Source: Clytia hemisphaerica | Lineage: Eukaryota > Cnidaria > Hydrozoa > Leptothecata > Clytiidae | DNA: 64,000 nt | NCBI GenBank assembly: GCA_902728285.1 | Contig: CACVBU010000050.1 | Location: 738,829 to 802,828 of the forward strand | Reading direction: 5' to 3' | Part shown: positions 19,691 through 39,311 of the stretch, piece by piece | How positions within the stretch are numbered: the first letter of the stretch is position 1 | Layout: each line of letters opens with the position of its first letter | Program-made: the position numbers and the translations under genes | The notes under the pieces: model-generated | Database searches by the model: none | What the model was told of the DNA's origin: nothing | What the model saw: only the letters and a program-made list of their open reading frames with translations

Positions 19691-21937
19691 TATACCGTGA
19701 TCGAGCAATGAACAACAAAAAGTTGTTCTATCACATCAGATGACAGAGGACTGAAATGGAGTTTGCAACCTTTTGATGCCAAGTTCTTTCGTCCATTCAA
19801 ACGTACTGCAACAATAAGACAAGAATCAACTTCAAATAAAATGCAAAATTTCGGCCAATAATCAAGATGTACAAAAGATAAAGAAAGCGAAACCTTGTTG
19901 AAGAATCGAAGTTTTTGCCTCAAAATTTGAGCAAGAAATTTACTAGATGAGTGAGTGTTGCACCGAAACGTCGACCTATTTCAAGAAAATCATAAATCAA
20001 CATGGTTAAATTTAGACCGCCAATTATGAAGCGCTATTAAGCTCCATAAACACCTTTACGACATAAATTTTACCAAAATACTATTACTAGTAATATAGGG
20101 GAGTGCTAGAAACTCCAATCATCATAATAACAGCTCATCCAAAGACAGTCCAATTGAATCAACCACCACTTGATCAAGGAGAGTTTTACAAGGCCTTCCT
20201 CCTTTTGTGTACAATTGTGTCACAATTGAAGGAAAGCAATTTGACTGAACGGTGTACGGGTATTCGAAGAACGTGCTAAACATAATTTCGAGGTATCGTC
20301 TAAATTCACGAAAAAAAAACTCTCAAAAATTCCTAGAGACAAAAAATAAAACAATAATCCGTCCCTGGCTGAGAACATTATAATGGGAGTTAAAGTCGCC
20401 CATACACACATATGAAAAACACTAAACAAATGAATATGCAAACAAATGGATCTGACAAATAGGTTGACTTCCAAAACAATCTAATCATAAATATCTGGAG
20501 TCATACTTCAACCGACCATTTGAAGGTTTACCTGTGGAAGAAGGGTAATTTTTCAAAGATGAAAATGTTACCTGCAACTTTTTGAGCTTTCTACATATTT
20601 TGACCGATTAGAGAGATTGCTGTTGTCCTTACTAAGAGAAAACTTAACAGGGAAGGCCGAGTTTCCACGTTATCGTATAAGCTTTAAAAGGTCGAGTCAG
20701 GCTTGCAATGGAAGGCTTGTTCCACTTTTTGACTGTTCAATCGCATTCAGAGGATCTTTTTTTGCAGCAACCTGTAAAGTTCTTCGATTGACCGCTGTTT
20801 AGTTTGACCAACAACGTCATCGTTTGCCATGTTGGGCTTCCATAGGATAGGATATAAGATCCTTTGATGAGAACTTGTTTTCACTTCGCCAGCAGTGAAC
20901 AGTAAAACAAAAGGCAATGTTCTCTAAATAGATTGATATCACGCAAGTTAAACTTCAGAATTTATTCAGTGCTACTCTAAGCATCATTTTGTTAGATACG
21001 TCTCCATTGCTTATGTTAGTGTCCATGAAATTGAACCTTAAACGAACACAGACTCTACATTGTCTCTAAAAAAGATTTTCGTGATATTGTCTGTAGATTC
21101 TTTACTTTGGTCCTCTCTTTTGCTTCCGAAGGCAAACCTGTAGAATATAGTTTAATAATTCTAAAGATCAGTGAAGCGTCAAGAGAGGCTAGCTTGATCA
21201 CAACATTTACTTCTTTAAATTATAGAAACAACAGAGGGCTTAAATGGATACGGGTTCTAATCCATTCTAACTTTCATTCACAAAAACATTATATTTAAGA
21301 AGTGTAGATTTACCACATTGTTTTGAAAAATTGATCAAATCATTTACCTGGTTAGTATTACACGGTTTTTTGATTTAGTCGTCTTTCTTAGCAATCTCCT
21401 TTTGCATCATATGGTAAGTGTTTTTAGCAGTTACTAAAGTGGCAATTGTGTACACTCGTAATGTACCATACGTTAACAGCTACGGCATTTGAGTCGATTT
21501 TGATTTTCATCATCAATACACCTAACAAGGGTGCATGTTGCAGTTGTGTTTGCTGCTTCAATGGGTGGTGTTTATGTCACGATTTTTCTTCATATTTAGA
21601 GAATTTTTCATCAAAAAGCTTCTTGAGTTTCTGTTTACCCAATTCCCCTCACATGACATGGGTTGGCCCGGGCAAAGGTACATTCACTTGCAAAGTGTAT
21701 CACAGCCCTAGTTGAAATCGTAACAAGCCCTTCTGGACGGCTTTTGAAATAGATATACCAATACACAACTAGAACAGCTAGTTCACTGCAATATTGGATG
21801 CAAGCAGACATCTATTCTCTAGAAGCACGACACTTTAAAAAAACATCAAAATAGCAGCACTCTGCGTCAAAATTATTTAACTTCCTAAGTGATACTGTGA
21901 TCTTGTCTTAACATACCAAGGAACATTAGTTTTGTAA
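19691..21937. other. no gene seen; possible hammerhead-like motif
   Basis: About 2.2 kb between the two satellite arrays. The short ORFs (up to 89 codons) have no recognisable domain. Near 19943-19975 the string ctagatgagtgag, then ttgcaccgaaacgtcgacc, resembles a hammerhead ribozyme core (see findings). No tandem repeat is seen in this stretch. Confidence 0.35.
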
Positions 21938-24900
21938 TTTTTGAAGATTAAAGGAAGTATTGGAAAAGAATGATTAATTTTAGACTTTTAAGACATAATA
22001 GTAAGGCGTGAATGCAACTGACAACATTGAGAGTATGTGCGGTAAAATATGTATGATCTAATGTAAAAAAGCGTTGTTCACCTCCCCCTCGGGAAAGTCA
22101 TGATTCAGCTAACCTCAAATCATTGGCGATGTTATAGCCACATTCAATCACTATTTTATCTTTTAGGAAAGCATTATCAAAACCAAATCCAGAAGTTTTC
22201 ACCAATAATTTCAATATTTTTTAAGTTAAAGATTTTTCAAAAAGGACCGTTAATTTTGAAATTTTAGACGATTATAGGAAGTACTAGAAAACGCCCAATA
22301 ATTTCAGGTTTTTAGGATATGATAGTAAGACATGAATGCAACTGACAACATTGAGAGTATGTGCAGTAAAATACGTATGATCTAATGTAAAAAAAGCGTT
22401 GTTTCCTCCACCCTTGGAAAAGTCATGATTGAGCTAACCTCAAATCATTAGGGATGTTATAGCCACATTCAATCACTATTCTATCGTTTAGCAACGCATT
22501 ATCAAGCCCAAATCCAGAAGTTTTCTTCAAAATTTCAATATTTTTTAAGTTAAAGATTTTTCCAAAAGGACCATTAATTTTTTAACTTTTGATAATTATA
22601 GGAAGTATATTAGAAAAGCATTATTAATTTCAGGTTTTTAAGATATGATAGTAAGGCATGAATGCAACTGACAACATTGAGAGTATGTGTGGTAAAATAT
22701 GTATGATCTAATGTAAAAAAGCGTTGTTCCCTCCACCCTTTGGAAAGTCATGATTGAGCTAACCTCAAATCATTGGGGATGTTATAGCCACATTCAATCA
22801 CTATTCTATCGTTTAGCAACGCATTATCAAGCCCAAATCTAGAAGTTTTCTTCAAAATTTCAATATTTTTTAAGTTAAAGATTTTTCAAAAATGAGCATT
22901 AATTTTTTAATTTCGGATAATTATAGGAAGTATATTAGAAAAGCATTATTAATTTCAGGTGTTTAAGATATGATAGTAAGACATGAATGCAACTGACAAC
23001 ATTGAGAGTATGTGCGGTAAAATATGTATGATCTAATGTAAAAAAAGCGTTGTTTCCTCCACCCTTGGAAAAGTCATGATTGAGCTAACCTCAAATCATT
23101 AGGGATGTTATAGCCACATTCAATCACTATTCTATCGTTTAGCAATGCATTATCAAGCCCAAATCCAGAAGTTTTCTTCAAAATTTCAATATTTTTTAAG
23201 TTAAAGATTTTTCCAAAAGGACCATTAATTTTTTAGCTTTTGATAATTATAGGAAGTATATTAGAAAAGCATTATTAATTTCAGGTGTTTAAGATATGAT
23301 AGTAAGACATGAATGCAACTGACAACATTGAGAGTATGTGCAGTAAAATATGTATGATCTAATGTAAAAAAGCGTTGTTCCCTCCACCCTTTGGAAAGTC
23401 ATGATTGAGCTAACCTCAAATCATTGGGGATGTTATAGCCACATTCAATCACTATTCTATCGTTTAGCAACGCATTATCAAGCCCAAATCCAGAAGTTTT
23501 CTTCAAAATTTCAATATTTTTTAAGTTAAAGATTTTTCAAAAATGACCATTAATTTTTTAATTTTGGATAATTATAGGAAGTATATTAGAAAAGCATTAT
23601 TAATTTCAGGTGTTTAAGATATGATAGTAAGACATGAATGCAACTGACAACATTGAGAGTATGTGCGGTAAAATATGTACGATCTAATGTAAAAAAACAG
23701 TTGTTTCCTCCACCCTTGGAAAAGTCATGATTGAGCTAACCTCAAATCATTAGGGATGTTATAGCCACATTCAATCACTATTCTATCGTTTAGCAACGCA
23801 TTATCAAGCCCAAATCCAGAAGTTTTCTTCAAAATTCATATATTTTTTAAGTTAAAGATTTTTCCAAAAGGATCGTTAATTGTGTAGTTTTGGACGTTAA
23901 TAGGAAGTATAATAGAAAAGTATCATTAATTTCAGGTTTTTAAGATATGATAGTAAGGCATGAATGCAACTGACAACATTGAGAGTATGTGCGGTAAAAT
24001 ATGTATGATCTACTGTTAAAAAAAGCGTTGTTTCCTCCACCCTTTGCAAAGTCATGATTGAGCTAACCTCAAATCATTAGGGATGTTATAGCCACATTCA
24101 ATCACTATTCTATCGTTTAGCAACGCATTATCAAGCCCATATCCAGAAGTTTTCTTCAAAATTTCAATATTTTTTAAGTTAAAGATTTTTCAAAAATGAC
24201 CATTATTTTTTTAATTTTGGATAATTATAGGAAGTATATTAGAAAAGCATTATTAATTTCAGGTGTTTAAGATATGATAGTAAGACATGAATGCAACTGA
24301 CAACATTGAGAGTATGTGCGGTAAAATATGTATGATCTAATGTTAAAAAAAGCGTTGTTTCCTCCACCCTTGGAAAAGTCATGATTGAGCTAACCTCAAA
24401 TCATTAGGGATGTTATAGCCACATTCAATCACTATTCTATCGTTTAGCAACGCATTATCAAGCCCAAATCCAGAAGTTTTCTTCAAAATTCATATATTTT
24501 TTAAGTTAAAGATTTTTCCAAAAGGATCGTTAATTGTGTAGTTTTGGACGTTAATAGGAAGTATAATAGAAAAGTATCATTAATTTCAGGTTTTTAAGAT
24601 ATGATAGTAAGGCATGAATGCAACTGACAACATTGAGAGTATGTGCGGTAAAATATGTATGATCTACTGTTAAAAAAAGCGTTGTTTCCTCCACCCTTGG
24701 AAAAGTCATGATTGAGCTAACCTCAAATCATTAGGGATGTTATAGCCACATTCAATCACTATTCTATCGTTTAGCAACGCATTATCAAGCCCATATCCAG
24801 AAGTTTTCTTCAAAATTTCAATATTTTTTAAGTTAAAGATTTTTCAAAAATGACCATTATTTTTTTAATTTTGGATAATTATAGGAAGTATATTAGAAAA

Positions 24901-27900
24901 GCATTATTAATTTCAGGTGTTTAAGATATGATAGTAAGACATGAATGCAACTGACAACATTGAGAGTATGTGCGGTAAAATATGTATGATCTAATGTTAA
25001 AAAAAGCGTTGTTTCCTCCACCCTTGGAAAAGTCATGATTGAGCTAACCTCAAATCATTAGGGATGTTATAGCCACATTCAATCACTATTCTATCGTTTA
25101 GCAACGCATTATCAAGCCCAAATCCAGAAGTTTTCTTCAAAATTTCAATATTTTTTAAGTTAAAGATTTTTCAAAAATGACCATTAATTTTTTAATTTTG
25201 GATAATTATAGGAAGTATATTAGAAAAGCATTATTAATTTCAGGTGTTTAAGATATGATAGTAAGACATGAATGCAACTGACAACATTGAGAGTATGTGC
25301 GGTAAAATATGTATGATCTAATGTAAAAAAAGCGTTGTTCCCTCAACCCTTTGGAAAGTCATGATTGAGCTAACCTCAAATCATTGGGGATGTTATAACC
25401 ACATTCAATCACTATTCTATCATTTAGCAACGCATTATCAGGCCCAAATCCAGAAGTTTTCTTCAAAATTTCAATATTTTTTAAGTTAAAGATTTTTCAA
25501 AAATGACCATTAATTTTTTAATTTTGGATAATTATAGGAAGTATATTAGAAAACTATCATTAATTTCAGGTTTTTAAGATATGATAGTAAGGCATGAATG
25601 CAACTGACAACATTGAGAGTATGTGCGGTAAAATATGTATGATCTAATGTAAAAAAAGCGTTGTTTCCTCCACCCTTGGAAAAGTCATGATTGAGCTAAC
25701 CTCAAATCATTAGGGATGTTATAGCCACATTCAATCACTATTCTATTGTTTAGCAACGCATTATCAAGCCCAAATCCAGAAGTTTTCTTCAAAATTTCAA
25801 TATTTTTTAAGTTAAAGATTTTTCAAAAATGACCATTAATTTTTTAATTTTGGATAATTATAGGAAGTATATTAGAAAAGCATTATTAATTTCAGGTGTT
25901 TAAGATATGATAGTAAGACATGAATGCAACTGACAACATTGAGAGTATGTGCGGTAAAATATGTATGATCTAATGTAAAAAAAGCGTTGTTTCCTCCAAC
26001 CTTGGAAAAGTCATGATTGAGCTAACCTCAAATCATTAGGGATGTTATAGCCACATTCAATCACTATTCTATCGTTTAGCAACGCATTATCAAGCCCAAA
26101 TCCAGAAGTTTTCACCAAAATTTCAATATTTTTTAAGTTAAAGATTTTTCAAAAATGAACATTAATTTTTTAATTTTGGATAATTATAGGAAGTATATTA
26201 GAAAACTATCATTAATTTCAGGTTTTTAAGATATGATAGTAAGGCATGAATGCAACTGACAACATTGAGAGTGTGTGCGGTAAAATATGTATGATCTAAT
26301 GTTAAAAAAAGCGTTGTTTCCTCCACCCTTGGAAAAGTCATGATTGAGCTAACCTCAAATCATTAGGGATGTTATAGCCACATTCAATCACTATTCTATC
26401 ATTTAGGAACGCATTATCAAAACCAAGTCCAGAAGCTTTCACCGAAATTTCAATATTTTTTAAGTTAAAGATTTTTCCAAAAGGACCGTTAATTGTGTAG
26501 TTTTGGACGTTAATAGGAAGTATATTAGAAAAGTATCATTAATTTCAGGTTTTTAAGATATGATAGTAAGGCATGAATGCAACTGACAACATTGAGAGTA
26601 TGTGCGGTAAAATATGTATGATCTAATGTTAAAAAAGCGTTGTTTCCTCCACCCTTGGGAAAGTCATGATTGAGCTAACCTCAAATCATTAGGGATGTTA
26701 TAGCCACATTCAATCACTATTCTATCGTTTAGCAACGCATTATCAAGCCCAAATCCAGAAGTTTTCTTCAAAATTTCAATATTTTTGAAGTTAAAGATTT
26801 TTCAAAAATGACCATTAATTTTTTAATTTTGGATAAATATAGGAAGTATATTAGACAAGCATTATTAATTTCAGGTGTTTAAGATATGATAGTAAGACAT
26901 GAATGCAACTGACAACATTGAGAGTATGTGCGGTAAAATATGTATGATCTAATGTAAAAAAGCGTTTTTCCCTCCACCCTTTGGAAAGTCATGATTGAGC
27001 TAACCTCAAATCATTGGGGATGTTATAGCCACATTCAATCACTATTCTATCATTTAGGAACGCATTATCAAAACCAAGTCCAGAAGCTTTCACCGAAATT
27101 TCAATATTTTTTAAGTTAAAGATTTTTCCAAAAGGACCGTTAATTGTGTAGTTTTGGACGATAATAGGAAGTATATTAGAAAAGTATCATTAATTTCAGG
27201 TTTTTAAGATATGATAGTAAGGCATGAATGCAACTGACAACATTGAGAGTATGTGCGGTAAAATATGTATGATCTAATGTAAAAAAAAGCGTTGTTTCCT
27301 CCACCCTTGGAAAGTCATGATTGAGCTAACCTCAAATCATTGGGATGTTATAGCCACATTCAATCACTATTCTATCATTTAGGAACGCATTATCAAAACC
27401 AAGTCCAGAAGCTTTCACCGAAATTTCAATATTTTTTAAGTTAAAGTTTTTTCAAAAATGACCATTAATTTTTTAATTTTGGATAATTATAGCAAGTATA
27501 TTAGAAGAGCATTAGTAATTTCAGGTTTTTAAGATATGATAGTAAGACATGAATGCAACTGACAACATTGAGAGTATGTGCGGTAAAATATGTATGATCT
27601 AATGTAAAAAAGCGTTGTTCCCTCCACCCTTTGGAAAGTCATGATTGAGCTAACCTCAAATCATTGGGGATGTTATAGCCACATTCAATCACTATTCTAT
27701 CATTAAGAACGCATTATCAAAACCAATCCAGAAGTTTTTCACCAAAATTTCAATATTTTTTAAGTTAAAGATTTTTCCAAAGGACCGTTAATTTTGTAAT
27801 TTTGGATACGATTATAGGAAGTATATTAGAAAAGTATCATTAATTTCAGGTTTTTAAGATATGATAGTAAGGCATGAATGCAACTGACAACATTGAGAGT

Positions 27901-30900
27901 ATGTGCGGTAAAATATGTATGATCTAATGTAAAAAAAAGCGTTGTTTCCTCCACCCTTGGAAAGTCATGATTGAGCTAACCTCAAATCATTGGGGATGTT
28001 ATAGCCACATTCAATCACTATTCTATCGTTTAGCAACGCATTATCAAACCAAATCCAGAAGTTTTCACCAAAATTTCAATATTTTTTAAGTTAAAGATTT
28101 TTCCAAAAGGACCGTTAATTGTGTAGTTTTGGACGTTAATAGGAAGTATATTAGAAAAGTATCATTAATTTCAGGTTTTTAAGATATGATAGTAAGGCAT
28201 GAATGCAACTGACAACATTGAGAGTATGTGCGGTAAAATATGTATGATCTAATGTAAAAAAAGCGTTGTTTCCTCCACCCTTGGAAAAGTCATGATTGAG
28301 CTAACCTCAAATCATTAGGGATGTTATAGCCACATTCAATCACTATTCTATCGTTTAGCAACGCATTATCAAGCCCAAATCCAGAAGTTTTCTTCAAAAT
28401 TTCAATATTTTTTAAGTTAAAGATTTTTCAAAAATGACCATTAATTTTTTAATTTTGGATAATTATAGGAAGTATATTAGAAAAGCATTATTAATTTCAG
28501 GTGTTTAAGATATGATAGTAAGACATGAATGCAACTGACAACATTGAGAGTATGTGCGGTAAAATATGTATGATCTAATGTAAAAAAAGCGTTGTTTCCT
28601 CCACCCTTGGAAAAGTCATGATTGAGCTAACCTCAAATCATTGGGGATGTTATAGCCACATTCAATCACTATTCTATCATTTAGGAACGCATTATCAAAA
28701 CCAAGTCCAGAAGCTTTCACCGAAATTTCGATTTTTTTTAAGTTAAAGATTTTTCCAAAAGGACCGTTAATTGTGTAGTTTTGGACGTTAATAGGAAGTA
28801 TATTAGAAAAGTATCATTAATTTCAGGTTATTAAGATGTGATAGAAAGGCATGAATGCAACTGACAACATTGAGAGTATGTGCGGTAAAATATGTATGAT
28901 CTAATGTAAAAAAAGCGTTGTTTCCTCCACCCTTGGGAAAGTCATGATTGAGCTAACCTCAAATCATTGGGGATGTTATAGCCACATTCAATCACTATTC
29001 TATCGTTTAGCAACGCATTATCAAGCCCAAATCCAGAAGTTTTCTTCAAAATTTCAATATTTTTTAAGTTAAAGATTTTTCAAAAATGACCATTAATTTT
29101 TTAATTTTGGATAATTATAGGAAGTATATTAGAAAAGCATTATTAATTTCAGGTGTTTAAGATATGATAGTAAGACATGAATGCAACTGACAACATTGAG
29201 AGTATGTGCGGTAAAATATGTATGATCTAATGTAAAAAAAGCGTTGTTCCCTCCACCCTTTGGAAAGTCATGATTGAGCTAACCTCAAATCATTGGGGAT
29301 GTTATAGCCACATTCAATCACTATTCTATCATTTAGGAACGCATTATCAAAACCAAGTCCAGAAGCTTTCACCAAAATTTCAATATTTTTAAGTTAAAGA
29401 TTTTTCCAAAAGGACCGTTAATTGTGTAGTTTTGGACGATAATAGGAAGTATATTAGAAAAGTATCATTAATTTCAGGTTTTTAAGATATGATAGTAAGG
29501 CATGAATGCAACTGACAACATTGAGAGTATGTGCGGTAAAATATGTATGATCTAATGTAAAAAAGCGTTGTTTCCTCCACCCTTTGGAAAGTCATGATTG
29601 AGCTAACCTCAAATCATTGGGGATGTTATAGCCACATTCAATCACTATTCTATCGTTTAGCAACGCATTATCAAGCCCAAATCCAGAAGTTTTCTTCAAA
29701 ATTTCAATATTTTTTAAGTTAAAGATTTTTCAAAAATGACCATTAATTTTTTAATTTTGGATAATTATAGGAAGTATATTAGAAAAGCATTATTAATTTC
29801 AGGTGTTTAAGATATGATAGTAAGACATGAATGCAACTGACAACATTGAGAGTATGTGCGGTAAAATATGTATGATCTAATGTAAAAAAAGCGTTGTTCC
29901 CTCCACCCTTTGGAAAGTCATGATTGAGCTAACCTCAAATCATTGGGGATGTTATAGCCACATTCAATCACTATTCTATCATTTAGCAACGCATTATCAA
30001 AACCAAGTCCAGAAGTTTTCTTCAAAATTTCAATATTTTTTAAGTTAAAGATTTTTCAAAAATGACCATTAATTTTTTAATTTTGGATAATTATAGGAAG
30101 TATATTAGAAAAGCATTATTAATTTCAGGTGTTTAAGATATGATAGTAAGACATGAATGCAACTGACAACATTGAGAGTATGTGCGGTAAAATATGTATG
30201 ATCTAATGTAAAAAAAGCGTTGTTCCCTCCACCCTTGGAAAAGTCATGATTGAGCTAACCTCAAATCATTGGGGATGTTATAGCCACATTCAATCACTAT
30301 TCTATCATTTAGGAACGCATTATCAAAACCAAGTCCAGAAGCTTTCACCAAAATTTCAATATTTTTTAAGTTAAAGATTTTTCCAAAAGGACCATTAATT
30401 TTTTAATTTTGGATAATTATAGGAAGTATATTAGAAAAGCATTATTAATTTCAGGTGTTTAAGATATGATAGTAAGACATGAATGCAACTGACAACATTG
30501 AGAGTATGTGCGGTAAAATATGTATGATCTAATGTAAAAAAAGCGTTGTTTCCTCCACCCTTTGGAAAGTCATGATTGAGCTAACCTCAAATCATTGGGG
30601 ATGTTATAGCCACATTCAATCACTATTCTATCATTTAGGAACGCATTATCAAAACCAAGTCCAGAAGTTTTCACCAAAATTTCAATATTTTTTAAGTTAA
30701 AGATTTTTCCAAAAGGACCGTTAATTGTGTAGTTTTGGACGATTAATAGGAAGTATATTAGAAAAGTATCATTAATTTCAGGTTTTTAAGATATGATAGT
30801 AAGGCATGAATGCAACTGACAACATTGAGAGTATGTGCGGTAAAATATGTATGATCTAATGTAAAAAAAAGCGTTGTTTCCTCCACCCTTGGAAAAGTCA

Positions 30901-33900
30901 TGATTGAGCTAACCTCAAATCATTAGGGATGTTATAGCCACATTCAATCACTATTCTATCGTTTAGCAACGCATTATCAAGCCCAAATCCAGAAGTTTTC
31001 TTCAAAATTTCAATATTTTTTAAGTTAAAGATTTTTCAAAAATGACCATTAATTTTTTAATTTTGGACGTTAATAGGAAGTATATTAGAAAAGTATCATT
31101 AATTTCAGGTTTTTAAGATATGATAGTAAGGCATGAATGCAACTGACAACATTGAGAGTATGTGCGGTAAAATATGTATGATCTAATGTTAAAAAAAGCG
31201 TTGTTTCCTCCACCCTTGGAAAGTCATGATTGAGCTAACCTCAAATCATTAGGGATGTTATAGCCACATTCAATCACTATTCTATCGTTTAGCAACGCAT
31301 TATCAAGCCCAAATCCAGAAGTTTTCTTCAAAATTTCAATATTTTTTAAGTTAAAGATTTTTCAAAAATGACCATTAATTTTTTAATTTTGGATAATTAT
31401 AGGAAGTATATTAGAAAACTATCATTAATTTCAGGTTTTTAAGATATGATAGTAAGACATGAATGCAACTGACAACATTGAGAGTATGTGCGGTAAAATA
31501 TGTATGATCTAATGTAAAAAAAGCGTTGTTTCCTCCACCCTTGGAAAAGTCATGATTGAGCTAACCTCAAATCATTAGGGATGTTATAGCCACATTCAAT
31601 CACTATTCTATCGTTTAGCAACGCATTATCAAGCCCAAATCCAGAAGTTTTCACCAAAATTTCAATATTTTTTAAGTTAAAGATTTTTCAAAAATGAACA
31701 TTAATTTTTTAATTTTGCATAATTATAGGAAGTATATTAGAAAAGCATTATTAATTTCAGGTGTTTAAGATATGATAGTAAGACATGAATGCAACTGACA
31801 ACATTGAGAGTATGTGCGGTAAAATATGTATGATCTAATGTAAAAAAAGCGTTGTTTCCTCCACCCTTGGAAAAGTCATGATTGAGCTAACCTCAAATCA
31901 TTGGGGATGTTATAGCCACATTCAATCACTATTCTATCGTTTAGCAACGCATTATCAAGCCCAAATCCAGAAGTTTTCTTCAAAATTTCAATATTTTTTA
32001 AGTTAAAGATTTTTCAAAAATGACCATTAATTTTTTAATTTTGGATAATTATAGGAAGTATATTAGAAAAGCATTATTAATTTCAGGTGTTTAAGATATG
32101 ATAGTAAGACATGAATGCAACTGACAACATTGAGAGTATGTGCGGTAAAATATGTATGATCTAATGTAAAAAAAGCGTTGTTTCCTCCACCCTTTGGAAA
32201 GTCATGATTGAGCTAACCTCAAATCATTAGGGATGTTATAGCCACATTCAATCACTATTCTATCGTTTAGCAACGCATTATCAAGCCCAAATCCAGAAGT
32301 TTTCACCAAAATTTCAATATTTTTTAAGTTAAAGATTTTTCAAAAATGACCATTAATTTTTTAATTTTGGATAATTATAGGAAGTATATTAGAAAAGCAT
32401 TATTAATTTCAGGTGTTTAAGATATGATAGTAAGACATGAATGCAACTGACAACATTGAGAGTATGTGCGGTAAAATATGTATGATCTAATGTAAAAAAA
32501 GCGTTGTTTCCTCCACCCTTGGAAAAGTCATGATTGAGCTAACCTCAAATCATTAGGGATGTTATAGCCACATTCAATCACTATTCTATCGTTTAGCAAC
32601 GCATTATCAAGCCCAAATCCAGAAGTTTTCACCAAAATTTCAATATTTTTTAAGTTAAAGATTTTTCAAAAATGACCGAATATTTTGTAATTTTGCATAA
32701 TTATAGGAAGTATATTAGAAAAGCATTATTAATTTCAGGGTTTAAGATAGATAGTAAGACATGAATGCAACTGACAACATTGAGAGTATGTGCGGTAAAA
32801 TATGTATGATCTAATGTAAAAAAGCGTTGTTTCCTCCACCCTTGGAAAAGTCATGATTGAGCTAACCTCAAATCATTAGGGATGTTATAGCCACATTCAA
32901 TCACTATTCTATCGTTTAGCAACGCATTATCAAGCCCAAATCCAGAAGTTTTCACCAAAATTTCAATATTTTTTAAGTTAAAGATTTTTCAAAAATGAAC
33001 ATTAATTTTTTAATTTTGCATAATTATAGGAAGTATATTAGAAAAGCATAATTAATTTCAGGTGTTTAAGATATGATAGTAAGACATGAATGCTACTGAC
33101 AACATTGAGAGTGTGTGCGGTAAAATATGTATGATCTAATGTAAAAAAGCGTTGTTTCCTCCACACTTGGAAAAGTCATGATTGAGCTAACTTCAAATCA
33201 TTTGGGATGTTATAGCCACATTCAATCACTATTCTATCGTTTAGCAACGCATTATCAAGCCCAAATCCAGAAGTTTTCTTCAAAATTTCAATATTTTTTA
33301 AGTTAAAGATTTTTCAAAATGACCATTAATTTTTATTTTGGTAGATTATAGGAAGTATATTAGAAAAGCATGATTAATTTCAGGTGTTTAAGATATGAGA
33401 GTAAGACATGAATGCAACTGACAACATTGAGAGTATGTGCGGTAAAATATGTATGATCTAATGTTAAAAAAGCGTTGTTTCCTCCACCCTTGGAAAAGTC
33501 ATGATTGAGCTAACCTCAAATCATTAGGGATGTTATAGCCACATTCAATCACTATTCTATCGTTTAGCAACGCATTATCAAGCCCAAATCCAGAAGTTTT
33601 CTTCAAAATTTCAATATTTTTTAAGTTAAAGATTTTTCAAAAATGACCATTAATTTTTTAATTTTGGATATTATAAAAGTATATTAGAAAAGCATATTTA
33701 TTTCAGGTGTTTAAGATATGATAGTAAGACATGAATGCAACTGACAACATTGAGAGTATGTGCGGTAAAATATGTATGATCTAATGTAAAAAAAGCGTTG
33801 TTCCCTCAACCCTTTGGAAAGTCATGATTGAGCTAACCTCAAATCATTGGGGATGTTATAGCCACATTCAATCACTATTCTATCATTTAGCAACGCATTA

Positions 33901-34480
33901 TCAGGCCCAAATCCAGAAGTTTTCTTCAACATTTCAATATTTTTTAAGTTAAAGATTTTTCAAAAATGACCATTAATTTTTTAATTTTGGATAATTATAG
34001 GAAGTATATTAGAAAAGCATCATTAATTTCAGGTTTTTAAGATATGATAGTAAGGCATGAATGCAACTGACAACATTGAGAGTATGTGCGGTAAAATATG
34101 TATGATCTAATGTAAAAAAGCGTTGTTTCCTCCACCCTTGGAAAAGTCATGATTGAGCTAACCTCAAATCATTAGTGATGTTATAGCCACATTCAATCAC
34201 TATTCTATCGTTTAGCAACGCATTATCAAGCCCATATCCAGAAGTTTTCTTCAAAATTTCAATATTTTTTAAGTTAAAGATTTTTCAAAAATGACCATTA
34301 TTTTTTTAATTTTGGATAATTATAGGAAGTATATTAGAAAAGCATTATTAATTTCAGGTGTTTAAGATATGAGAGTAAGACATGAATGCAACTGACAACA
34401 TTGAGAGTATGTGCGGTAAAATATGTATGATCTAATGTTAAAAAAAGCGTTGTTTCCTCCACCCTTGGAAAAGTCATGAC
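21938..34480. repeat. 325-bp satellite array, about 38 copies
   Basis: The marker gagtatgtgcggtaaaatat recurs at 22031, 22355, 22681, 23006, 23332, 23657 and 23983, i.e. every 324-326 bp, and so on to about 34.4 kb. The copies are in one orientation and most are highly similar. The first copy is the most diverged and the last is cut after aaaagtcatga at 34480, where the LINE begins. Two subtypes alternate over parts of the array: one with gtgtagttttggacgttaat plus gtaaggcatg, the other with ttttggataattataggaag plus gtaagacatg. No ORF or hammerhead-type ribozyme core is present in the unit on either strand. Confidence 0.95.
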
Positions 34481-34674
34481 ACTGCAACGACTTCAACGTC
34501 AACGGACGCTTTTTTTTTGACGTTCAGAAAAAACTCTTCGTTTTCAAGAGTTTTTTGCAAAGGAATTCGTCATAAACAGTGTTTTATAGTTAAATTTCAC
34601 ATGATTCTGATGAGGAACGGATTCTGCACACGCTGATATATTTTTTCGCGTGGAAACCAAGAAGTTTTCGAAAA

Positions 34675-35244
34675 ATGGGACGATTAAACGTCAAATTTCA
34701 CCTGCTCATCTTGCTGTTTGTTTTGAAGTTTCATGAATCGTCCACACAAGCAGAAACTGTTGTGAACGCAAACCAAACAAGGATTAACCGGAAGCAGATC
34801 ACACTTGTTAGTTTACAAAGGAACAATCGTAACCTTAAAAGACACTTCAAGAACAAATCTAAATTCTTGACCATTTTAATCCTTCTGGCTGGAGATATCG
34901 AATCAAACCCAGGTCCAGACCATGTCAAGCGTGTTGTTCCTGAACTAGACCGAATGCTACAAAAGAAGGGGATCAAGATGCTCCATCAAAACATCCGAGG
35001 TTTGTCGAGTAAACATTCACATCTAGAGGAATTGCTATCCGACTTTCCTAAGATTGACATCCTCGGACTTTCAGAAACTCATCTCGAAAAGTCGCTCGAA
35101 GAAACCGACATTTGCTCAATCGAGAACTACGAATTGATCAAAAAGAATCGGCTGACAGGCACCCACGGAGGTGTAGCTCTCTACATATCTGACCGGATCA
35201 AATACAAATACAAACGACGAAAGACCTTGAACACGAGCGTTTAG
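34675..35244 (+). pseudogene. LINE ORF, 5' part: leader, 2A-like motif and endonuclease start
   Basis: The frame opens with a hydrophobic stretch (residues about 7-19, HLLILLFVLKF) ahead of STQA, resembling a secretory signal peptide. Basic residues 36-63 follow, then LLAGDIESNPGP with the G80-P81 junction of a 2A-type ribosome-skipping motif (D-x-E-x-N-P-G-P). The APE-like endonuclease starts soon after (KMLHQNIRGLSSK, then DILGLSETHL and GGVALYI). The frame ends at a TAG at 35242 because one base is missing: the endonuclease continues in the -1 frame from 35241 (LECIWVEV, then GCIYRPPD). 2A motifs in this position are known from non-LTR elements of several invertebrates. Confidence 0.85.
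34874..34917 (+). other. 2A-like ribosome-skipping motif
   Basis: Encodes a hydrophobic lead (ILILLA) followed by GDIESNPGP, matching the consensus D-V/I-E-x-N-P-G-P; the last Pro codon is 34915-34917. In known 2As the ribosome fails to join Gly to Pro, so the N-terminal 80 residues would be released from the endonuclease/RT protein. Activity is inferred from the motif. Confidence 0.8.
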
Positions 35245-37118
35245 AGTGTATATGGGTCGAAGTCCTCGAAACTAACACAAGTCCGTTTCTCCTCGGCTGT
35301 ATCTATCGTCCACCCGATACGTCTGACTATTTCCCTCCCGACTTCGATGAACTTTTTCAGAACAATTTAACAGCTAACATGAACGAATACCGAGAGGTCA
35401 TCTTAATGGGGGACTTTAACATCAATTATCTCGTCCGAAACGACCACAGAGATGAAAAACATTTCTTAAACCTGCAAGGTTTTGACCAAATTATAACAAA
35501 ACCTACCCGTATAACTGACACATCTTCAACATTAATCGATCTCGCCCTGACAAACGACAAGTCGAAAATCTCCCACGAAACCGTAATTCCCTTATCACTA
35601 AGTGATCATGATATGATTGGAGTTGTTCGGAAACGTAACCATCAAAGATATGAACCCAAAACCATCAAATGCCGAAACTTTTCGCGGTACAATCCTGATG
35701 CTATGAACAACGAACTTCGCCAAGTCGATTGGAATCTTGTATATCAACAGTCCGAACCAAATGCTGCTTGGAAATACTTCAAACAAATCGTGACTAACTC
35801 CTTCAATCGCCATGCCCCTGAAATAACAAAACGCATCAAAGGTCGCCCATGTCCATGGCTCACCCAAGAAATCCGAGCACACCTGAACGATCGTGACAAA
35901 GCTGATCGAAAAGCAAGGCGAACGAAAGACGAAGGTGATCGAAATATCTATCGTCGTAAAAAGAACCGATGCACCAATCTCATCAAACAGGCGAAAAACA
36001 ATTACCATAAAGAAATCCTCACCGAAAACCTCAAAAATAGTAAAAAGTTCTGGGGTCACATCAAAAAACTTTTACCATCTTCAAACGTAAAATCAAAACC
36101 AACTGACGTTCTCAAAGACGGTGACGCAACCGCTACTAGCCCAAAAGACAAAGCCGATATGTTTTGTAATTATTACGCCAAAGTGGCACAGAATCTAAAG
36201 AAAAAAGCAATGCCACTAATAGACTTTGTCTGGAGACAAGCTAGACCCTTTCCCAACCGCACCGATAAGATTTTCAAGTTTTCAATGGTTGGAGAAGACC
36301 TGATATGTAAACTTCTTCAAGGACTCAAACGAAAGAAGGCTACCGGCATCGACCAACTTCCATCTAACCTGCTGAAAGATGCAGCTCCATCCATCTCCAA
36401 ACCACTCGCACATATAATCAATCTTTCGTTATCCACCTCAGCATTTCCGACCGAGTGGAAGGAAGCCAAAGTGACACCCTTATTCAAATCCGGAAAAATA
36501 TCGTCTGTCGAAAATTATCGTCCAATCTCGATACTACCAGTCATTTCGAAAATAGCAGAGAAAATTGTCCAGATGCAGCTTACTGAATACCTGGAAGAGA
36601 ATAATCTACTCACTGATTTCCAATTCGGTTATAGAAAGCACTCCTCCACGGAAATGGCTGCTAACCTCTTCATCGACGATATTCGAAAGCAAGTAGACAA
36701 AGGAAATGTTGCTGGCGCCCTGTTCCTCGATTTATCCAAGGCGTTCGACACAATCAGCCACGGTTCGCTACTGAAAAAACTACCGGCCTACGGGATCAGG
36801 ACGACTGAGCTGAACTGGTTTCAAGACTACCTTTTCAATCGCCAACAATTTGTTTCGTATGATAAAGCCATGTCCCAACCGCAACCGGTCACCTGTGGCG
36901 TCCCCCAGGGAAGCATTCTTGGCCCACTTTTATTTCTTATATTTTTCAATGACTTTCCTGACTGTCTTGAGAATTGCAAAACGATCATGTTTGCAGACGA
37001 CACAGTCATCTACACTGCGGCGAAAAGCTCCAAAGAAGTCAACGACATCCTAAACGCCGAACTCAACAACGTCCAACGCTTCATGACCGAGAACGAACTT
37101 ATCGTTAACCTGAAAAAA
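35241..37118 (+). pseudogene. LINE ORF, middle part: endonuclease and reverse transcriptase
   Basis: Continues the endonuclease in the frame that an ATG at 35379 also uses: GCIYRPPD, VILMGDFNINYL, TLIDLALTN and SLSDHDMIG are the usual APE-endonuclease blocks, with the GDFN and SDH catalytic positions intact. A linker rich in Lys and Arg follows, then the reverse transcriptase: ENYRPISILPVISKIAEK, FGYRKHSSTE, ALFLDLSKAFDTISH, CGVPQGSILGPLLFLI and the catalytic MFADDTVIY (about 36985-37010). The gene is cut after Asn-Leu-Lys-Lys by an insertion. Motif order and lack of RNase H fit the CR1/L2/Jockey group. Confidence 0.9.
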
Positions 37119-37791
37119 CAGGCCAGTCTCACAAAAAAATCTACAAAATAAGTAGATGTATAAATTTTCTTAATTCTACGGACGTCTGTAGAATTACGGC
37201 ACTCTTTAATATCGACATATAATGTAGAATGTAGAATTCAACTGATTTTGTAGATATTCTAGAACGATTTCACTTTGTGCGCGCTCGAGACTCGAGCTCC
37301 AAACCCCTGACCCAAGAACTTTTGTAGTGACGAGTAAACAGTCTAACTGACGAGTTAGGCTAACTGTCTAGATCACTATATATCCGGTATTATGGTATTA
37401 CGCCATCCACAACCCCGACCGTTAAGTGAGACCACCCCAGTGTATTCTTCGCCCTTACTTGTCAGCGCTAAATTACTCATTGTGGTGTATACAATATAGA
37501 CTCTATTGTGTAGCAATCTACTAATTTGCCGTAATTCTACAGATGTCTGTAGAAATATGAAATCTACATATTTTGTAGAATAATAATTCTACCCTATATA
37601 CCCTTCTATACAATATAGACTCTGTTGTGTAGCAATCTACTAATTTGCCGTAATTCTACAGACGTCTGTAGAAATATAAATCTACATATTTTGTAGAATA
37701 ATAATTCCACCCGTAAATCTACAGACATCTGTAGAAATTTTAAATTTACACCATCTACGTATTCTGTAGAATTATGTGTGATAATGTGTTG
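37119..37791. mobile_element. 673-bp TIR element inserted in the LINE, 7-bp TSD
   Basis: A direct duplication gaaaaaa lies at 37112-37118 and 37792-37798. The first 27 bases (cag...ctcac...tctaca) and the complement of the last 27 match at about 19 positions, so it has imperfect inverted ends. Inside, the palindrome ttctacagacgtctgtagaa recurs, and a segment of about 122 bp (tatacaatatagactct onwards) is tandemly duplicated at about 37488 and 37610. Removing the insert and one duplication puts the LINE frame back in register, so it entered cleanly. CA...TG ends and a TSD of 7-8 bp suggest a hAT-like non-autonomous element. Confidence 0.8.
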
Positions 37792-38452
37792 GAAAAAAGG
37801 AAAGACTGAGGGGATGTTGTTTTCCACCGCTAAGAAATTGCACGATTCTCCCAAACTGAATTTACTCTACGGTGAAACACCCATTAACAACGCTACCAGC
37901 TACAAATATCTGGGAATTTTGATCGACCCAGAGCTTCGACTATCCGAACATTTTGAAAAAACAATTAAGATATCAACTTCACGTTTAAAGCTACTGACTT
38001 TAATTCGATCGAACGTAACTTCATTCGCAGCCTACCAAATATTTCGTGCTATGGTACAAACTATCATCCTTTACGGGTCATCCACCAACCTAAACCTCAA
38101 CAGATCTAGCATCGACCGCCTTGACAGTATCGATCGCAGGGCTAGAAGGATCATTAACAAACGGCAAATAGATCGCCATATTATCGAGCCGACATCGAAT
38201 GTCATGAAGCGTCAAGCATGTTGCCTTGTGAAGAAATGTATGCTGGGTAAAGCAAGTGTGTTGCTGGCTAATCATTTCGAACAAAATAACCACGGTGTCA
38301 ATACACGAAACCAAAATGCTTTTATTCGTCTGCCCAAAATTCGTTTAGAAGTTGCCCGACGTGGATTCTTCTTTATGGGAGGAAGGTTGTACAATACGCT
38401 ACCAGTGGAATTGAGAACCGTAAATGACTTTAATATTTTTAAAACAAAATAA
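37792..38452 (+). pseudogene. LINE ORF, 3' part: RT thumb and C-terminus
   Basis: Downstream of the insertion the reverse transcriptase continues with GKTEGMLFSTAKKLH, the typical YKYLGILIDPEL block (the W/YLG-I motif after the RT fingers and palm), and a C-terminal Arg-rich region (SIDRLDSIDRRARRIINKRQ) seen in CR1/Jockey-type proteins. It ends at TAA 38450-38452 (FNIFKTK). An apparent start at 37778 lies partly in the inserted element and is not a real start. Confidence 0.85.
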
Positions 38453-38665
38453 AGTCTCATACTTTCAATTTTATTTAAGTATAGTGCCTCTGCTTAGCCT
38501 TTAACTTGCCACTACACTATCTCTTTTCTGGATAATTTATTTTTGGATCTAGCGAGGCTTTGGTTTTCACTCTCGTTGCTACATTTAACTATATCCCTAA
38601 TATTCTGTATCAATGATAGTAAAGAGAGGCATTTAGGATATTTTATCTAATATTTATTTCCGTCT

Positions 38666-38705
<40 letters not shown>

Positions 38706-39311
38706 GAATATGATAATTTCACTGTTTTTGGGTACTTTCTCCTTTTCAGAGTTTACACATTGCGTCACACTTTTCAGTATTAATATTCTCAGTCTCGACA
38801 TACTGTATTAATAGACTTCACATACATGTATACTTTTAGTCTTGTTACATTAATTTTAAGATATTATAACCTTTTGAAGTATCTATCGATCACAGCGTGG
38901 TTTTTCTGCGGGTATAACCTTTCATATTTAGTTTAATATATTCTCTATTAGTTCTATTTTATGTTTGCCTCAGTTATTTTTCATACTGTGTTATGCCTCG
39001 TGTTTTTCCTTACTATCATTTACTCATGCCTTTCCAACATTGGAAAGTACGTACACCTCTCAATCAAAACGAGATCTTACATCGTAATTTCTACTTTCAT
39101 AGCGAATTTAACTCCTCATTCAAATAATTATTTTCAAGTGCTTTTTCATAGCCAAATTCAATACGTTCGTAAACTATGCCAGCATGCCTTTTATTTAACT
39201 TACAATTTATTTATTATTTTAGATTTATAACAGGACCAAAGGTAATATCAGATACTTGTAACTGTTTGCGTAATCCTGTATAAATATTCAATAAAAACTA
39301 AAAAAAAACAA

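Follow-up and report, generated by a model that had tools for sequence, protein, structure and literature searches.

A Clytia hemisphaerica LINE with a signal-like leader and a 2A/StopGo-like sequence ahead of its endonuclease

In a window of 64,000 nucleotides of the Clytia hemisphaerica genome (contig CACVBU010000050.1), we found a LINE whose 81-residue N-terminus consists, in this order, of a hydrophobic stretch, a basic linker and LILLAGDIESNPGP, followed directly by an APE-type endonuclease and an RT. Our overall best reading, held with moderate confidence, is that the signal-like leader would be released by StopGo, which would leave the endonuclease/RT in the cytosol, while the unskipped product would be bound for the ER. 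The interpretation given in an earlier sequence-only reading of the window is thereby partly supported.

The element and its leader

The element, designated family A, is an APE-type LINE with an RT domain, an upstream endonuclease and fixed ends with an A-rich tail. Its full-length copy occupies positions 34479..39311 of the window (+ strand), from the 5' end CACTGCAACG to an A-rich 3' tail (3' end 39303-39311). A 5' UTR of 196 nt (34479..34674, +) precedes the coding part. Its only upstream ATG frames, one nested in the other, have 11 and 8 codons, which means that an ORF1 is missing and that nothing but the leader is encoded ahead of the endonuclease. The latter (34990..35618, +) spans a frameshift before 35244 and was recognised in the frame of a sister copy (L031; Exo_endo_phos, 2.9e-11), which includes the leader; the second window frame gives an Exo_endo_phos_2 match of 8e-5, under Pfam's cut-off. 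The reverse transcriptase core (36507..37130, +) corresponds to residues 377-584 of the frame 35379-37148 (RVT_1, 1.2e-36). An insertion of ~670 bp (37118..37792, +), which carries palindromic TTCTACAGACGTCTGTAGAA-like units, is missing from the other two full-length copies (L014, L017). The C-terminal part of the RT frame follows at 37793..38452 (+), as indicated by the agreement between ORF 37778-38452 and the C-termini in L017 and L014. On its upstream side the LINE begins at the edge of a 12.5-kb array of a 326-bp satellite (window 21924-34479); a SET/MYND gene and a gene for an Alg9-like mannosyltransferase lie elsewhere in the window.

Three full-length copies of family A were found, in the window (contig C38), on C294 (L014) and on C678 (L017). 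They start at the same base of CACTGCAACG with different flanks and end near window position 39311 with the A-rich tail AATAAAAACTAAAA, so that both ends are common to all three. Compared with the window copy, C294 is 99.5% identical over the 5' blocks and 95.5% over the 3' block, and C678 99.4-99.6% and 93.2%; in the 3' block, 9 and 13 mismatches, respectively, adjoin gaps. Family A is a young element. Further traces are a degenerate copy on C619, in which GDIESNPGP is still readable in a broken frame, and fragments on C272 and C49. A fully open frame is present in none of the three full-length copies: the window copy has a frameshift and the insert, C678 another insert, and C294 other breaks. 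Since the window frame is shifted just before the stop at 35244, leader and RT do not lie in one open frame there. The sequence-only reading had described a single LINE frame starting with the leader; the LINE and its leader stand, but the continuous frame does not hold for the window copy. In the sister copy on C678, leader, 2A and endonuclease are found together in one frame of 682 aa. Intact members lacking the motif, which had been named as evidence against the reading, were not seen in family A, where 3/3 full-length copies keep leader and 2A; yet none of these copies is itself fully open.

The leader with its 2A covers 81 codons (34675..34917, +; ORF coordinates and translation) within an ORF of 189 aa (34675-35244, +) that starts with MGRLNVKFHLLILLFVLKF and contains the 2A FLTILILLAGDIESNPGP; the full 81-residue peptide is MGRLNVKFHLLILLFVLKFHESSTQAETVVNANQTRINRKQITLVSLQRNNRNLKRHFKNKSKFLTILILLAGDIESNPGP. 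The earlier placement of a signal-like start and then GDIESNPGP just before the endonuclease proved exact, with residue 81 being the P after the skip site and its codon ending at 34917. The start ATG is preceded by AAAA and followed by G, which is a good start context. The next in-frame Met codons are at residues 94 and 102, past the 2A, and a shorter ATG-started leader is therefore not possible. The hydrophobic stretch FHLLILLFVL (residues 8-17; 34696..34725, +) is signal-peptide-like as judged by Kyte-Doolittle hydropathy, a crude stand-in for a SignalP-type predictor: its maximum mean over 10 residues is 3.01, a value reached by 24 of 5000 shuffles. Residues 1-10 contain two K/R and zero D/E, a basic n-region ahead of the hydrophobic core. 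The basic linker (residues 18-63; 34726..34863, +) has a net charge of +8 over residues 18-61 and NxS/T sequons at residues 33 and 60. The 2A/StopGo-like sequence (34864..34917, +) was assigned by its motif and upstream class in comparison with the published consensus. It reads DIESNPGP, in agreement with the StopGo octapeptide D(V/I)ExNPGP, and is directly preceded by the hexapeptide LILLAG, by eye of the LLLLSG-like, L-rich StopGo class; the predicted skip bond lies between G80 (ending at 34914) and P81. The stretch ends 63 residues before this bond, and the leader is thus not a dual signal/2A within one short peptide of the Roulston type. Searches with the leader alone matched 0 Pfam families and gave a single PDB match (E 0.66), nothing of weight.

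Recurrence of the arrangement and selection on the leader

The genome (417 Mb, 951 contigs) was scanned for the motif. There were 64 matches to a degenerate GDIESNPGP pattern and 361 to DxExNPGP, which are copies within families and not independent events, while the reversed pattern gave 0 in both cases. The occurrence of the motif is not due to chance. Among the 64 sites, GDIESNPG is written in at least 16 synonymous spellings, so that the peptide is not one recent copy that has spread about; as the search itself demanded this peptide, the spellings alone are no measure of selection.

To survey the leaders, 17 representatives were picked by hand and 15 of them scored, each from its first in-frame M; D (leader too short) and D2 (no start codon) were left out. 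An N-terminal hydrophobic stretch above shuffles was found in nine of the 15 scored families. The number of shuffles (of 5000) reaching the stretch was 24 for A, 3 for C, 8 for C2, 1 for C3, 4 for I and 1 for J, and the more moderate scorers E, H and F had 225, 189 and 101. A combined p over families should not be taken at face value, because C, C2 and C3 (and B and B2) are related. The pairing of the 2A with a hydrophobic N-terminus, to which the sequence-only reading had drawn attention, is thus real in the window LINE and recurs in other families. In the other six scored families (B, B2, D3, D4, K and L) the 2A is, by this scoring, not accompanied by an N-terminal stretch, the best stretches being reached by 3300, 2377, 4513, 589, 2076 and 697 of 5000 shuffles, respectively; K and L are possible false negatives because hydrophobic residues precede their first in-frame M.

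In the nine families with a stretch, 50-69 residues (mean 61) separate its end from the skip bond. Directly after the 2A, families A, E and F have the endonuclease. In family H a PHD finger (4e-8) was found at this place and in family C a PHD match just under Pfam's cut-off, and a similar cysteine pattern is seen in C2, I and J, and in C3 via its relative L074. The octapeptide departs from the canonical form in some of the nine families: F has CPGP and H has SVEVNPGP, and in E the representative L036 ends in NPGL, although NPGP is found in its sisters L037 and L052. Loci L059, L060 and L061 are LINEs with GSVEVNPGP (S at the usual D), a signal-like start MFTMFLKYLLPFFLSLTLFSSKARA and a PHD finger, L059 with a LINE frame of 1128 aa.

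For comparison, 12 LINE loci without a 2A seen in frame were drawn from the search with the window protein, and 11 of them were scored; they represent fewer families (L042, L043 and L046 are alike, as are L055 and L057), and the frames of L044, L050 and L058 are cut. Nine of the 11 also lack such a stretch, and several begin straight with a PHD-like finger. The remaining two score high; L056 appears to be a broken copy read in the wrong frame, whereas L038 is real. This relative of the window LINE (X38; C678:577620-578009) has an open frame of 1012 aa with MAAWRAVMLVMLLIFY near its start and no 2A. Its N-terminus occurs at one locus only in the genome, which makes a private deletion possible. 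Even so, X38 shows that the stretch need not go together with a 2A, and, if it is a working signal, it would route the X38 endonuclease to the ER. A and X38 join (82/88) in an endonuclease tree of 11 rows, and both lie in an unresolved fork in a tree of 15 rows over the first 110 residues, both trees being poorly resolved with long branches. Variation was also seen in the motif itself. A related family with frames of 977 and 1049 aa (C90, C355; also C342 and C843) reads GDVETCPGP, and a second LINE family reads GDIERCPGP; together the two have 7 CPGP sites in the genome, with 0 in the reversed control. CPGP loci in two LINE families are L039, L040, L053, L048 and L054. In the FMDV 2A, exchange of this Asn for Ala abolished activity, and His was active in its natural context (PMC12846837). 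Since Cys is not among the variants named in the excerpted text of that paper, CPGP may be inactive or a new variant. A strict link between stretch and 2A is thus not upheld, given the 6/15 families without a stretch, X38 without a 2A and the long-frame relative with CPGP.

Motif matches were also found outside LINEs. A Helitron frame of 2257 aa (L083:680-7453; C8:213500-221200) has the leader MISIEAYRVCIGSF, then a DIELNPGP 2A, followed by a Herpes_teg_N (deubiquitinase-type) match, Helitron_like_N (2.2e-35), PIF1 (7.3e-33) and a weak C-terminal endonuclease; no paper combining 'Helitron' with '2A-like' was found in the open-access literature searched. A leader of the form MxISxxxYRxxIGxF before the 2A is common to deubiquitinase/Helitron-type frames and LINE families B and B2. 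A profile was built on residues 1-40 of nine leaders of this type (L062, L063, L064, L069, L072, L076, L079, L084 and L093), with Helitron nature shown for one and a deubiquitinase match for four. With this profile, five of six LINE B/B2 leaders (L011, L013, L009, L068, L085, L086) exceeded all 1800 shuffles, whereas the sixth and all six SP-type leaders did not. This leader type thus seems common to two unrelated classes of mobile element. Another frame, L070 (C37:63480-64580), has DVELNPGP ahead of a ubiquitin carboxyl-terminal hydrolase domain (UCH, 6.5e-17).

Selection was assessed with a diverged relative on C285, identified through protein similarity rather than through the motif, that is 44% identical to the window leader over residues 5-77. 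As this copy is itself disrupted within the 2A, the comparison ends there. Over 72 codons the Nei-Gojobori pN/pS is 0.51 (bootstrap 0.38-0.69), with 0 of 2000 replicates at or above 1. The pN and pS values are 0.12/0.55 for residues 5-18, 0.49/0.74 for the linker and 0.23/0.70 for the last 14 codons, so that the linker is less constrained than either the hydrophobic stretch or the part just before the 2A. The hydrophobicity of the stretch is kept between window (3.01) and C285 (2.95), and its mean hydropathy is 2.15-3.56 across 13 compared leaders. Tolerance of sequence change with retained hydrophobicity is the usual behaviour of signal peptides.

Pooling six leader pairs (A-C285, C-C2, C-C3, J, I and E, a set given by what the fetched loci allowed and using C twice) yielded a pN/pS of 0.42 (0.33-0.53) for the linker and 0.57 (0.38-0.84) for the first 20 residues, the least constrained part, where 4 of 1000 replicates reached 1. 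For the 2A region the pooled value of 0.16 (0.08-0.28) is biased low, because the C, J and I loci were found by octapeptide match. Single pairs run against constraint: the first 20 residues have a pN/pS of 1.77 in C-C2 and 0.92 in J, and all changes in the E pair are nonsynonymous, 2 at the N-terminus and 3 in the 2A region. As judged from these substitution patterns, the leader evolves under purifying selection. The sequence-only reading had suggested looking for such selection at the octapeptide; it is borne out for the leader by the C285 comparison, and the octapeptide value carries the bias of loci mostly found by motif.

Proposed mechanism and rival readings

The order signal-like leader, basic linker, StopGo/2A, endonuclease and RT in a single long frame suggests the following course of translation. 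The hydrophobic stretch would probably direct the nascent chain to the ER during translation, as a signal or signal anchor. The exit tunnel holds 30-40 residues of a nascent chain, and ribosome and translocon together hold 65-70 (PMC2978324). With 50-69 residues between stretch and skip bond, the stretch would thus be exposed when the 2A acts: at GDIESNPG/P it would already be outside the tunnel and open to SRP or Sec61. The ribosome would pause at the 2A, skip the Gly-Pro bond and free the 80-residue leader, and the endonuclease-RT would then be synthesised in the cytosol, free of any signal. Where skipping fails, with a minority of ribosomes, a leader-endonuclease-RT fusion would be delivered to the ER and would probably be of no use for retrotransposition. 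The released leader is a candidate membrane peptide or tether for mRNA or ribosome. StopGo at the window 2A is very likely to work; that the N-terminal stretch is a working signal is probable, and a biological use of dual targeting of the RT appears doubtful to us. These three gradings are judgements and were not computed. A consequence of skipping for localisation is plausible. In cells, but not in vitro, a 2A can be inhibited when the sequence upstream of it is translocated (PMC2978324), and by analogy either this or a decision on targeting by skipping, as in sea urchin, may hold here.

Other readings explain part of these data. The 2A may be active while the stretch is no targeting signal, the leaders being small, fast-drifting remnants of an ORF1 that space the 2A from the endonuclease N-terminus. 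We regard this as unlikely, though it deserves to be taken seriously: the first 20 residues are the least constrained, six families (B, B2, D3, D4, K, L) carry the 2A with other kinds of leader, and in cytosolic proteins the residues with an influence on 2A lie within 30 aa (PMC2978324). However, the N-terminal stretch recurs in 9/15 scored families, its hydrophobicity survives while the exact residues change, and the linker is constrained as well (pN/pS 0.42), so that the leader is not free to drift. A view of leader and 2A as functionless remnants in dead copies draws on the broken frame in each of the three full-length family A copies, but it is very improbable given that the copies are 99.4-99.6% identical over the 5' blocks with leader and 2A intact, and that leaders of related families are under purifying selection.

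The signal might also serve as a timer or tether. It would carry LINE mRNA under translation to the ER, the pause at the 2A would give SRP more time to bind, and translocon contacts would set the skipped fraction, in the way that a hydrophobic region and a pause bring the XBP1u mRNA to Sec61. The spacing of 50-69 residues between stretch and pause site in nine families agrees with this, as do the ability of a translocated upstream sequence to inhibit 2A in cells (PMC2978324) and the recruitment of XBP1u by SRP with a pause (PMC4456659). Yet the spacing could follow simply from short leaders, the ER location of LINE mRNA is conjecture here, and nascent-chain tension has been argued unlikely to matter for StopGo (PMC12846837), which leaves this reading rather improbable. 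Signal-linker-StopGo leaders might be a recurrent, selected device of mobile elements, in which the ribosome is held at the ER by the signal just when the 2A decision falls, membrane engagement sets the amount of cytosolic endonuclease-RT and the released leader is a membrane peptide. Leader-2A cassettes may pass between element classes, given the MxISxxxYRxxIGxF leader common to LINEs and the Helitron group. We put this reading forward as speculation that is unlikely to hold.

Comparison with known systems

By its title, a paper of Odon et al. (2013, Mol Biol Evol) reportedly deals with 2A sequences that recode translation in APE-type non-LTR retrotransposons. The motif of those elements is of the same kind, and in the window LINE it precedes an APE-type endonuclease-RT; compared by title only, what differs here is that the signal-linker-2A layout recurs in nine scored families. 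A 2A in APE-type LINEs and a signal sequence with a 2A in sea urchin NLRs are already known. A LINE with a separate signal, linker and 2A was not described in the titles and abstracts listed from the open-access literature searched (with text of PMC4981915, PMC12846837, PMC11512398, PMC5009743 and PMC5972666), a weak negative, as key 2A surveys lie outside it. Should the leader prove to be a working signal, these LINEs would provide several natural instances in which ribosome skipping brings about dual targeting, and with them one could study why translation of a LINE would be directed to the ER. Natural leaders of similar signal-to-2A spacing also provide a test set for the published inhibition of 2A by translocation, and CPGP and SVEVNPGP are natural non-canonical octapeptides to test.

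The LILLAG directly before DIESNPGP by eye resembles the LLLLSG-like StopGo class of PMC12846837, a survey that covers RNA viruses, whereas the window case is a cellular retrotransposon. XBP1u likewise combines a hydrophobic nascent segment with a translational pause (PMC4456659), but it has no StopGo, and the analogy is one of mechanism only. In sea urchin, 2As of SpNLR are signal sequence and 2A at once (Roulston et al. 2016, PMC4981915), skipping giving a cytosolic protein and failure to skip a secreted one. The window LINE resembles SpNLR in having an N-terminal signal-like sequence and a putative 2A. However, the 26-aa 2A of SpNLR is itself the signal, whereas in LINEs of the window type stretch and 2A are separate and 50-69 residues apart, and the protein downstream of the 2A, unlike in SpNLR, is an endonuclease-RT.
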